From positions 62,001-126,000 of the forward strand of contig QCQA01000003.1 of NCBI GenBank assembly GCA_003212335.1: a DNA stretch of 64,000 nt. Direction: 5' to 3'. The stretch comes from SAR86 cluster bacterium AG-447-A08 (GTDB lineage: Bacteria; Pseudomonadota; Gammaproteobacteria; Magnimaribacterales; Magnimaribacteraceae). Positions 32,454-36,028 of the stretch are shown here, piece after piece (the stretch's first letter is position 1; each line of letters opens with the position of its first letter). The notes beneath the pieces were generated by a model. It was given only the letters and a program-made list of their open reading frames with translations, did no database searches and had not been told where the DNA came from. The position numbers and the translations under genes are program-made.

Positions 32454-34538
32454 ATGGAAAGTTATAAAAAATCATTCAAATTGGGTGAAAAAGAAATCAC
32501 ATTAGAATCAGGAAAAGTTGCAAGACAGGCAACTGGAGCAGTGATAGCAACTTGCGAGGATACCCAGGTCTTAGCCACGGTTGTTGTCGGAAAAGCTCCG
32601 GGAGAACACCAAGATTTTTTCCCGCTAACTGTAAATTATCAAGAAAAGACTTATGCCACGGGAAAGATTCCTGGAGGCTTTTTTAAGAGGGAAGGAAGGC
32701 CTACCGAAAAGGAGACGCTTACCTCAAGATTAATTGATAGGCCATTAAGACCTCTTTTTAATGATGATTTCCTGTATGAAGTTCAAGTTATCTGTACGGT
32801 TATTTCTTCTGATAAAGATGTTGATCCAGATATCCTATCTTTTTTAGCAGCATCTGCTGCAGTAGCTATATCAGGATTACCTTTCAATGGTCCGTTAGGC
32901 GCTATAAGAGTTGGATTTATTGATGGCAATTACTGCATAAACCCCACTAGAAGTGAACTAGAAAATTCTCATTTAGACATGGTCATAGCCGGTAGCGATG
33001 CAGCTGTGATAATGGTCGAATCTGAGGCTAAGGAATTATCTGAAGATCAAATGTTAGGAGGAATTTTATTTGCTCATCAAGAAATGCAAGTGGCAATTGA
33101 AGCGATCAAAGAAATGGCATCAGACATTGGAAAACCTGACTTTGAATATCAACCTAAAGTACTAAGCTCTGAGGTAATTGATCTAGTAGAAAAAAATTGT
33201 GCTTCAGCCATCTCAGAGGCTTACGAGATTCAAGTTAAGCAAGAGAGAGTTCAAAGCTTATCTTCTATTAAAGAATCTTTACTTGAAGAGTATGCTACAG
33301 ATGAAGAAGGCGCACCTTCAAGTGCAGATCTTCTCGATGCTGTAAAAAAAGTTGAAAAGAAGATTGTGAGAACTAAGTTAATCAATGGCGAGCCTAGAAT
33401 TGATGGTCGAGATCTAGACACAGTAAGGCCACTATTTATTGAAACTGGCGTTCTAAAAAATACACATGGCTCGGCTCTATTCACCAGAGGCGAGACACAA
33501 GCAATAGTGACATCTACATTAGGCTCTCCAAGACAAGCTCAGCTTATAGATGCTTTAGAAGGTGAGTTCAAAGATCAATTCATGCTTCATTATAATTTTC
33601 CACCTTACTCGGTAGGCGAGGCAGGATTCATGTCCGGTCCTAAAAGAAGAGAGATTGGCCATGGAAAGCTTGCAAGAAGAGCGCTTGAGGCAGTTTTACC
33701 TTCTCCGGATGATTTCCCTTATACAATCAGGGTAGTTTCTGAGATTACTGAATCTAACGGTTCAAGCTCTATGGCAAGTGTCTGTGGTTCGAGTCTTGCT
33801 TTGATGGATGCTGGTATACCTCTGAAAGCTGCAGTGGCAGGAATCGCCATGGGCCTTGTTAAGGAAGATGAAGGATTTGCTGTAATAACTGACATATTGG
33901 GTGATGAGGATCACTTAGGAGATATGGACTTTAAGGTAGCTGGAACTTCGGAAGGTATTACAGCTCTACAGATGGATATAAAAATAGATGGTATTACTGA
34001 AGAGATATTTGAAGTTGCCTTAGAGAAAGCCCACTCAGCAAGAAATCATATTTTAGACAGTATGAACGAAGTTATTTCGTCTTCTAGGGAACAATTATCT
34101 GAAAAAGCACCCCAAGCTGTTGTGATACAAATCAATACTAAGAAAATAAGGGATGTAATTGGTAAAGGTGGTGAAACAATAAGAGGTCTTACCGAAGAAA
34201 CTGGTGCAATAATTGAAGTTGAAGACAGCGGAAAAGTAACCATTTATGGTGATACCCCGGAATCTAGAGAAGCCGCACAAAAACGAATCGAGGAAATAAC
34301 TGCTGAGCCGGAAGTTAATAAAATCTATACTGGAACAGTGGCAAATATAAAAGACTTTGGTGCCTTTGTTACCATTATGCCCGGAAGAGATGGTTTAGTT
34401 CATGTCTCTGAAATCTCAGAAGAGCGAGTTGAAAATGTTTCTGACTACTTTGTTGAAGGAGAAGAGGTTAAAGTCAAAGTATTGGAAGTTGATAGACAGG
34501 GAAAAATTAGACTTACCATGAAGGGATTAGAGGATTAA
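32454..34538 (+). CDS. pnp: Polyribonucleotide nucleotidyltransferase (PNPase)
   Basis: Phosphorolytic 3'-5' exoribonuclease of the RNA degradosome. The 694 residues (E. coli 711) show two RNase PH domains (about 1-210 and 300-520, with [23 protein letters not shown]), a helical linker, a KH domain (about 550-610, [15 protein letters not shown]) and a C-terminal S1 domain (about 618-690, [15 protein letters not shown]). AGGAAA precedes the ATG. It ends the translation block; a terminator hairpin lies 70 bp after the stop. Confidence 0.98.
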
Positions 34539-34608
34539 TTTGTATTTATCCTAGTTTTGTGGTAGCTGAGCATTTGTTTAAATAGATTTCATCCTGTTAA
34601 ATTTATTT

Positions 34609-34634
34609 GTCCAGACTTATCTGGGCTTTTGTTT
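34609..34634 (+). terminator. Intrinsic terminator after pnp
   Basis: GTCCAGA (34609-34615) pairs with TCTGGGC (34620-34626), CTTA loop, then TTTTGTTT. It lies 20 bp before the next small gene. A possible promoter TTGTTT (34574-34579), 17 bp, TTAAAT (34597-34602) lies just ahead, in which case the hairpin would be at the 5' end of the small-gene RNA. Confidence 0.65.
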
Positions 34635-34654
34635 AGCAAATAAATGGGTGAAAT

Positions 34655-34873
34655 ATGAATGCTTTAAATACGTTGAGAGACATCATTGGATCTTTAACTG
34701 GAATAATAGTTTCTTTAGTTGCATTGGGAGTTGCAGCTGGAGTTGTTTTCGGTTCAGGAGTTCCTTTTGTAGGTGGAGTTCTAGACAATCTACTTAACTT
34801 AGTAAACACTTTAGGTGGAGAAGGTTTAGTAGGTCTTATAGTTCTAGCGGTTCTACTTGATCTGTATAGATAA
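34655..34873 (+). CDS. Small hydrophobic membrane protein, first of a paralogous pair
   Basis: A 72-residue protein I do not recognise. Two hydrophobic segments (about 14-33 and 57-69) flank a loop with the pattern VPFxGGxLxN and TLGxEGL. The next gene encodes a 77-residue protein with 16 identities in the 32-residue core (from FG at 32-33 here), so the two are tandem duplicates. A GGGTGAAAT precedes the ATG, nearly the same as GGGGGAAAT before the second gene. It is bounded by a terminator on each side, so it is likely a single-gene transcript. The paralogy and terminators argue that it is real. Function unknown; no catalytic residues are visible. Confidence 0.8.
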   Translation: MNALNTLRDIIGSLTGIIVSLVALGVAAGVVFGSGVPFVGGVLDNLLNLVNTLGGEGLVGLIVLAVLLDLYR

Positions 34874-34894
34874 GTCTCTTCTTAGCTATCATTG

Positions 34895-34929
34895 GAAAGG
34901 GGGCCTTTAAGGTACCCCTTTCTTTTTTT
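34895..34929 (+). terminator. Strong terminator between the two small membrane genes
   Basis: GAAAGGGG (34895-34902) pairs with CCCCTTTC (34915-34922), with an inner CCTT/AAGG pairing, then seven T. It ends the first small gene and lies 23 bp before the second. Confidence 0.85.
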
Positions 34930-34952
34930 AAGGGTCAGTAAAAGGGGGAAAT

Positions 34953-35186
34953 ATGTTAGACACAATAAACAAGCTATCAAGAATTCTATGGGATATAACA
35001 AAATTCTTGGCTCTAGTTGTGGCTGTAGCCATATTGATTTCAATGTTGTTTGGTAATAATGTTCCTTTCTTTGGAGGGATACTTGAGAATACCAGAATAA
35101 TAATGGAAACTCTCGGATCAGAAGGTTTAGGGCTAATCATTGCAATTATAATTATATTGAGTGTTTGGAACTCTAGATCAAGTTAA
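34953..35186 (+). CDS. Small hydrophobic membrane protein, second of a paralogous pair
   Basis: A 77-residue protein, paralogue of the gene just upstream. An amphipathic N end (1-16) leads to a hydrophobic segment (about 17-34), the shared loop NVPFFGGILEN plus TLGSEGL (about 36-59), and a second hydrophobic segment (about 60-71) ending WNSRSS. The ribosome site GGGGG is strong. A strong terminator follows within 13 bp. I do not recognise the family. Conservation of the loop (Gly-Gly, Asn, Leu-Gly, Glu-Gly-Leu) while the membrane segments drift suggests that the loop carries the function or an oligomer contact (inference). Confidence 0.8.
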   Translation: MLDTINKLSRILWDITKFLALVVAVAILISMLFGNNVPFFGGILENTRIIMETLGSEGLGLIIAIIIILSVWNSRSS

Positions 35187-35198
35187 AACGGACTTTTG

Positions 35199-35230
35199 AA
35201 AAGGCACTCTTCTAGGGTGCCTTTTTTTTT
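35199..35230 (+). terminator. Strong terminator after the second small membrane gene
   Basis: AAAAGGCAC (35199-35207) pairs with GTGCCTTTT (35217-35225), followed by T to 35230. The hydrolase ATG lies at 35234, so this hairpin and its T-run occupy the space where a ribosome site would be. Confidence 0.85.
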
Positions 35231-35233
35231 AAA

Positions 35234-36028
35234 ATGAAAAAAATTGTTGAAATAAAAGATGACTTAATCATCGGTAAGAATGGAGATCAAGATCTTACAG
35301 CAGATCTTTTTATACCATCAGAAGGAACTGAAAATGGCGCTGCTATTGTTTTTGTTCATGGAGGAGGTTGGAGAGAAGGAGATAAGTCTCAATTGCGAGG
35401 TTATGGAATACTTCTAGCTCGTGAAGGTTTTGTATGTCTTTGCACCGCTTATAGACTCTCCCAAGAAGCTCTATGGCCCGCTCAAATACAAGATGTTAAG
35501 TGCGCAATAAGATATATAAGGACAAATGCTGAAAACCTTAAAATTGATCCAAATAGAATAGGAGTTTCAGGTAATTCAGCTGGAGGTCACTTATCTTTAA
35601 TGACAGGTCTTAGCTCCTCTGACCCAAACTTTGAAGGAGAGGCGGGGTGCAACGAAGTAAGCTCTAAGGTTAAAGCAATTTGTGCAATTTATCCTCCTGC
35701 ACAAATCAGAAAGTATGATAATAGTGATCCGATAATTGATGCTTATAAAGCATTAATGGGGAAAGATGCTGAACAAGTAGACTATGATAAGGCTAGTCCT
35801 CTACTGCAAATTCAAAAGGATTTTCCACCAACAATGTTAATTCACGGATCCACTGATTCGGTTGTGGACTTGTCAGATTCAACCGATATATACAAAAAAT
35901 TGGTCGATCTAGGGGTTCCCTCTGAGCTTCATATTTACTCAGAAGAAGAACATGCTTTTGATTCACAAAGTGGATATGGAAGATCTGTAGCAGAGCTTCA
36001 AAACCTATTCTTTAAAAAGTATCTATAA
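35234..36028 (+). CDS. Alpha/beta hydrolase (esterase/lipase, HGGGW type)
   Basis: A 264-residue soluble enzyme of the esterase/lipase (Aes/BD-FAE-like) group. The oxyanion-hole motif is VFVHGGGWREGDKS (about 38-51), the nucleophile Ser lies in GVSGNSAGGHLSL (about 111-123), the acid is probably Asp in GSTDSVVDLSDS, and the His is in EEEHAFDS near the end. No signal peptide is seen. Substrate unknown; relatives act on short acyl esters. The ATG lies 4 bp after the T-run of a strong terminator with no Shine-Dalgarno, so its expression route is unclear. It converges with tRNA(CAU). Confidence 0.85.
   Translation: MKKIVEIKDDLIIGKNGDQDLTADLFIPSEGTENGAAIVFVHGGGWREGDKSQLRGYGILLAREGFVCLCTAYRLSQEALWPAQIQDVKCAIRYIRTNAENLKIDPNRIGVSGNSAGGHLSLMTGLSSSDPNFEGEAGCNEVSSKVKAICAIYPPAQIRKYDNSDPIIDAYKALMGKDAEQVDYDKASPLLQIQKDFPPTMLIHGSTDSVVDLSDSTDIYKKLVDLGVPSELHIYSEEEHAFDSQSGYGRSVAELQNLFFKKYL

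Follow-up and report, generated by a model that had tools for sequence, protein, structure and literature searches.

What do two small, adjacent and apparently related membrane protein genes do in SAR86, a dominant and mostly uncultivated surface-ocean heterotroph with small genomes? The pair, here called A and B, lies within a 64,000-nucleotide stretch of a SAR86 genome (hereafter the window), between pnp upstream (32454-34538) and an alpha/beta-hydrolase gene downstream (35234-36028), the latter followed by a convergent tRNA-Met gene. An earlier sequence-only reading had reported two open reading frames of 72 and 77 codons within 34595-35230, and both were found with the place and lengths given there (Table 1). 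That reading also took them for paralogues with almost the same ribosome site, and this held up throughout: A and B share 34% identity across 56 aa (BLASTP), B is retrieved with A as query at E 4.7e-10 (HMMER, this genome), the motifs V-P-F-x-G-G-x-L-x-N and T-L-G-x-E-G-L are common to both, and the two ribosome sites, gggtgaaatATG and gggggaaatATG, differ little. Judged from their sequences, A and B are true paralogues. A search for more copies in this genome with A as query (HMMER) found none beyond A and B, the next match being a 525-aa frame at E 0.4. At the downstream edge of the locus, the annotated ATG of the hydrolase gene (35234) falls 3 nt past the T-run of the terminator after B (window 35203-35240), so that this start is probably mis-called or preceded by an odd leader.

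Table 1 Features of the A/B locus, with positions in the window
Feature	Position	Strand	Description	Basis
Putative sigma70-type promoter of A	34574..34602	+	TTGTTT, 17 bp, TTAAAT; tentative	
Leader RNA element of A	34581..34654	+		Covariation; fold z -4.4 in window
ORF A	34655..34873	+	72 aa; predicted helical hairpin membrane protein, putative major subunit	Order-wide homologues; dN/dS 0.06-0.24 vs relatives with differences; AF2 pLDDT 87
Intercistronic hairpin with T-run, A-B	34895..34929	+	Present in every SAR86 pair examined	Covaries in family
ORF B	34953..35186	+	77 aa; A paralogue; predicted helical hairpin, putative minor subunit	BLASTP to A, E 8e-12; single B clade in tree; AF2 pLDDT 79
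Intrinsic-terminator-like hairpin after B	35203..35230	+	In window's family; usually missing elsewhere in SAR86	

The sequence-only reading recognised no family for either protein, and neither did our searches. Pfam-A, NCBIfam (scanned with A and B only) and PHROGs gave no family above cut-off, a sequence search of the PDB returned chance matches only (E 0.5), a PDB fold search with the A model had 0 matches up to E 10, the A model had no structure neighbours in BFVD, and we found no description of the family in the literature. As far as the searched libraries reach, the A/B family is firmly new. The nearest Pfam alignments, both of B, were to the LapA domain (PF06305, E 0.57) and DUF4006 (PF13179, E 0.33), each well under its cut-off. 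AlphaFold2 models of single chains predict two long helices in each protein, at residues 2-32 and 39-71 in A and 2-36 and 40-76 in B, with low pTM values of 0.51 and 0.42 (pLDDT in Table 1). The ATP synthase subunit c proteolipid is likewise a two-helix hairpin of about 75 aa, but A and B have no ATP-synt_C profile match in Pfam scans, and alignments of the A/B family contain no invariant D/E in helix 2. The family signature comprises F-G-x-x-(V)P-F-x-G and L-G-x-x-G-L. Conservation had been ascribed to the loop and not to the helices, a description that proved too narrow: the alignments also show T15, where helix 1 begins, and the helix 2 residues G54/G57 to be invariant or nearly so. Across all three clades of the family tree the turn bears a negative mean net charge and the C-terminus a positive one, and the mean N-terminal charge is positive except in A (about -0.35), a pattern that fits a cytoplasmic placement of both ends. 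A 183-aa member from genome G285 (L040 1150-1703, minus strand) has the hairpin fused to a long C-terminal tail of Lys-Thr repeats that resembles histone-like tails, suggesting that its C-terminal end is cytoplasmic.

Within the SAR86 order, A and B were found together or not at all. Among 75 genomes at least 85% complete, searched with a 54-row profile, 67 had both A and B, eight had neither, and none had a single match; the positive genomes carried two matches each, except for one with four. A search with A as the only query matched 52 of 61 relatives. Wherever SAR86 loci were inspected the two genes adjoin, A first, and loss also involves both: all three sampled genomes of genus g9 lack A and B, including one that is a single contig and 97% complete. 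We treat A and B as one functional unit chiefly because of this all-or-none pattern. Across the family as a whole the neighbouring gene varies between lineages, being pnp in SAR86 families f1 and f2, an FAD oxidase gene in f4, and ubiA/dapD, queA/tgt or various phage modules elsewhere. The ratio of non-synonymous to synonymous divergence (dN/dS) against relatives was mostly 0.06-0.24 for A and 0.04-0.14 for B, values from which we conclude that both are under purifying selection. A lack of homologues and of such selection would have spoken against the sequence-only reading; clearly, this pair has homologues across the order and a low dN/dS.

We then considered how A and B are expressed. Directly upstream of A lies a structured leader, in which an outer helix (TGTTAAAT/GTTTAGCA) encloses an inner helix GTCCAGA/TCTGGGC (34609-34615 with 34620-34626), followed by a U-rich stretch and then the ribosome site. 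The inner helix is 100% paired in 14 sequences, with 4 of 7 pairs altered on both strands, and 98.8% paired in 24 sequences that had been fitted to the covariance model, with 6 of 7 pairs so altered; over the whole element, both sides changed in 7 of 15 pairs. The covariance model yields one strong match per genome of the window's family, including genomes outside the training set, always directly upstream of A; the leader is absent from other SAR86 families, and B has no leader of this type. The hairpin upstream of A (34609-34626 plus TTTTGTTT) had been read as a terminator; it belongs to this conserved, A-specific leader RNA, and we rejected a role as mere pnp terminator since it is A-specific, covaries and has an invariant U-rich 3' flank. 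The promoter-like hexamers and their 17-bp spacing are conserved in 14 family members, with only 7 of 12 positions matching the consensus, and the call is tentative because TTAAAT is also the outer stem strand of the leader RNA; it may serve as -10 box, as stem strand or in both roles. Two smaller features were noted in this region: ATTTGT-like motifs repeated about 20 nt apart in the window (34537-34580), partly conserved in the family, which may be regulator sites, and, in the other SAR86 families (L071, L089, L102 and further f2 loci), ribosome sites of A that are unusually rich in G (AGGGGGG).

The hairpin between A and B extends further across the order than the leader. In the window's family it has a T-run and covaries; in families f2-f4 its folding energy has a mean z of -5.1, with 17 of 17 sampled below -2, and elsewhere in SAR86 the U-run is often poor or missing, which makes the stem-loop, and not termination, its constant property. 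Outside the window's family, B usually runs into a convergent tRNA. The notion that each gene is closed off by a strong terminator therefore describes the window, where a hairpin and T-run follow both A and B, but not SAR86 at large, as the U-runs after the A-B hairpin and the terminators after B are typical of the window's family only. Similarly, separate single-gene transcripts fit A and are doubtful for B: from the end of the T-run to the ATG of B there are only 23 nt, with no room for a promoter of its own, so B needs read-through or a promoter inside A or the hairpin.

Synonymous divergence (dS) sets A apart as well. Between the window and L082, dS was 0.16 for A, 0.29 for B, 0.57 for rpsO (S15), 1.17 for the hydrolase gene and 1.61 for pnp. 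For pairs with unsaturated pnp, the A/pnp and B/pnp ratios were respectively 0.35 and 0.39 in g1 (G005-G017), 0.37 and 2.1 (G033-G034) and 0.33 and 1.15 (G033-G029) in g4, and 0.26 and 0.79 in g5 (G022-G030). In f2, dS values for pnp, A and B were 1.20, 0.39 and 1.69 (L071-L077) and 1.90, 0.38 and 1.22 (L093-L101), and A was low in most f2 pairs, with exceptions among the closest ones (e.g., L076-L083). Overall, synonymous divergence of A is about a third of that of pnp across the order, and that of B is mostly not reduced. We take this, as indirect evidence, to mean that A is highly expressed and that selection acts on its mRNA or codons; the low dS could in part also reflect mRNA constraint rather than expression level, or exchange between lineages, since A was replaced in five genomes in which B and pnp were not. 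These five g1 genomes (L231-L235: G012, G017, G015, G009, G005) have A alleles identical to one another, and G005 shares with the window 50% identity in A, 82% in B and 93% in pnp; as they also keep the family leader, the coding part of A has been replaced within a fixed pnp-B slot. Recent transfer as the only cause of the low dS in A is disfavoured, because the leader linkers have diverged between the same species and the effect recurs in many pairs. The high or special expression that had been proposed for these genes is thus supported for A, as far as its own leader RNA and its dS of about a third of that of pnp across SAR86 can indicate; tandem copies in another gammaproteobacterial order, each with a promoter-like site and terminator, point the same way.

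That other order, represented by G382, has the family gene in 46 of 80 genomes. Its genus g482 mostly carries two copies and once three, about 430 bp apart, and the copies that were read have a TTGACA-15-TATAAA-like sequence upstream and a GC-rich hairpin with T-run downstream; genus g125 of the same order (1.0-1.6 Mb genomes) lacks the gene. In G825 (L225 1741-2794) there are three tandem copies, of which the first and third are almost identical and the second is different, a pattern suggestive of recent duplication or conversion. Homologues were scattered among 369 Gammaproteobacteria searched with a profile; tandem pairs occur in G398 and, it appears, in G277/G161, and further carriers include an Oceanospirillaceae metagenome-assembled genome (MAG) and Opitutales/Opitutaceae MAGs in which the neighbouring genes appear chromosomal. 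In two samples of 398 Pseudomonadota genomes no credible match lay outside Gammaproteobacteria, indicating that the family is rare overall.

The family is also viral. A scan of IMG/VR confirmed 175 stretches, 80 of which were kept, so that homologues occur on at least 80 contigs of uncultured viruses, many of them T4-like and the longest reaching 179 kb; identity to the G382 protein is as high as 70%. Among the genes nearby are a T4-like terminase gene on L121, UvsX-like and DNA polymerase genes on L192, a 5'-3' exonuclease gene on L164 and, in the L135 group, RegA-like, dUTPase, Hsp20 and M15 peptidase genes; Hsp20 lies 1-3 genes downstream of the family gene in 52 of 80 loci, and an M15 peptidase gene 4-7 genes away in 28 of 80. 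On L126 (2329-2886), a viral HD_4-domain protein, possibly a ppGpp hydrolase, adjoins the family gene. Chromosomal and viral homologues are mixed in one tree, in which A and B sequences each form a clade (support 98/86 for B) and a third clade unites viruses with the G382 order and Opitutales; the virus label changes at least three times over well-supported branches, the finer branching being unreliable because of the few alignment columns. A contig binned as a 'Saprospiraceae' MAG (L060) groups with viruses in the tree and carries ThyX-like, small lipoprotein-like and other phage-like genes; we treated it as viral and likely mis-binned. Among cultured phages, tblastn of INPHARED with three family members found nothing even at E 10, in a search whose low-complexity filter may mask the queries, and profile searches of the whole records of the kyanoviruses HTVC008M, Melnitz, P-TIM40 and S-RIM8 were negative. 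A 67-aa protein after RegA in HTVC008M was considered as a family member and rejected, as it looks soluble and unrelated. SAR86-type A or B was not found in viruses by single-protein scans, which reach close relatives only.

Taken together, these patterns suggest that A and B are the major and minor subunits of one oligomeric inner-membrane complex, that the hairpin between them sets their ratio, and that viruses use a relative of them during infection, an account to which we give slightly less than an even chance. Both proteins would be inner-membrane hairpins with cytoplasmic ends and the conserved F-G-x-x-(V)P-F-x-G-x-L-x-N turn outside, assembling into a hetero-oligomer with A in excess. 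A, made from a self-contained unit with its structured 5' leader, would be the abundant subunit, and B, reached by transcription or mRNA passing the A-B hairpin, the scarcer one, so that this hairpin would set the A:B ratio. The single-gene version of phages may then keep the same function going during infection, or alter it. The complex itself may act as a passive pore or ring or as a membrane-shaping scaffold; an oligomeric scaffold that forms a pore or ring seems likeliest. The puf operon of purple bacteria, in which intercistronic stem-loops govern how much light-harvesting protein is made relative to reaction-centre protein, follows the logic proposed here, i.e., small membrane subunits whose amounts depend on a hairpin between genes; it has no sequence relation to A/B, for which the action of the hairpin is our conjecture. 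For the viral side, hli and psbA are host-derived, highly expressed membrane protein genes on marine T4-like cyanophages, and the A/B family is also common to abundant marine bacteria and marine T4-like viruses, but it is unrelated to them in sequence and hosts, and the four kyanovirus records above lack it. Several observations speak against this account: single-copy members in viruses, some Gammaproteobacteria and Opitutales work without a partner, genus g9 lives without the pair, and the pTM of both models is low.

Other roles would account for part of these data. A and B could assist a larger membrane enzyme such as a transporter, oxidase or protease, as small accessory subunits or regulators in the manner of CydX or AcrZ, with the phage copy retuning that enzyme. 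We regard this as unlikely, if still a substantial contender: their size, hairpin fold, conserved turn and glycines could serve for docking on a partner, and the presence of the family in viruses agrees with it, but no neighbouring gene is consistent among lineages, and the high-level, multicopy design is more like that of a structural component. A role in membrane permeability, with viral members as holin-like pores and host members providing superinfection exclusion or phage resistance, appears improbable. Hosts and several phage types do share the family, the A allele has been replaced between SAR86 lineages and the pair lost from some, and in L120-L123 the family gene is flanked by an unassigned membrane protein gene and the terminase. 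Yet most phage copies lie near replication genes or Hsp20 and apparently not in a lysis cassette, order-wide conservation in SAR86 is atypical of defence genes, and the best PHROG holin match (phrog_565, E 0.12, in 1 of 22 members) carries no weight.

We consider it very improbable that the locus matters mainly as RNA, with the leader acting as a small RNA or attenuator and an RNA function behind the low dS of A. Leader and hairpins do covary; the leader, however, is confined to one SAR86 family while the proteins are conserved order-wide at low dN/dS. An Rfam match to the small RNA MicA (window 34561-34630) scored 26.5 bits, far under the gathering score of 41, and was rejected as probably due to chance.

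Returning to the two-subunit membrane complex, the data would make it, tentatively and with a probability just below one half, an undescribed complex that is near-universal in SAR86 and abundant under its own leader RNA, with single-gene relatives serving as an auxiliary gene of several lineages of uncultured marine viruses. A near-universal and probably abundant pair without known function represents a gap in SAR86 cell biology, and the repeated viral uptake of a related gene suggests that its function limits infection or survival. The strong family signature and the A leader allow direct searches for the pair in metatranscriptomes and metaproteomes, data in which membrane proteins of 72 aa are mostly missed. 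Two g4 genomes (L240 and L241, from G021 and G026) also encode, at other places, more distant membrane proteins that match part of the family profile.
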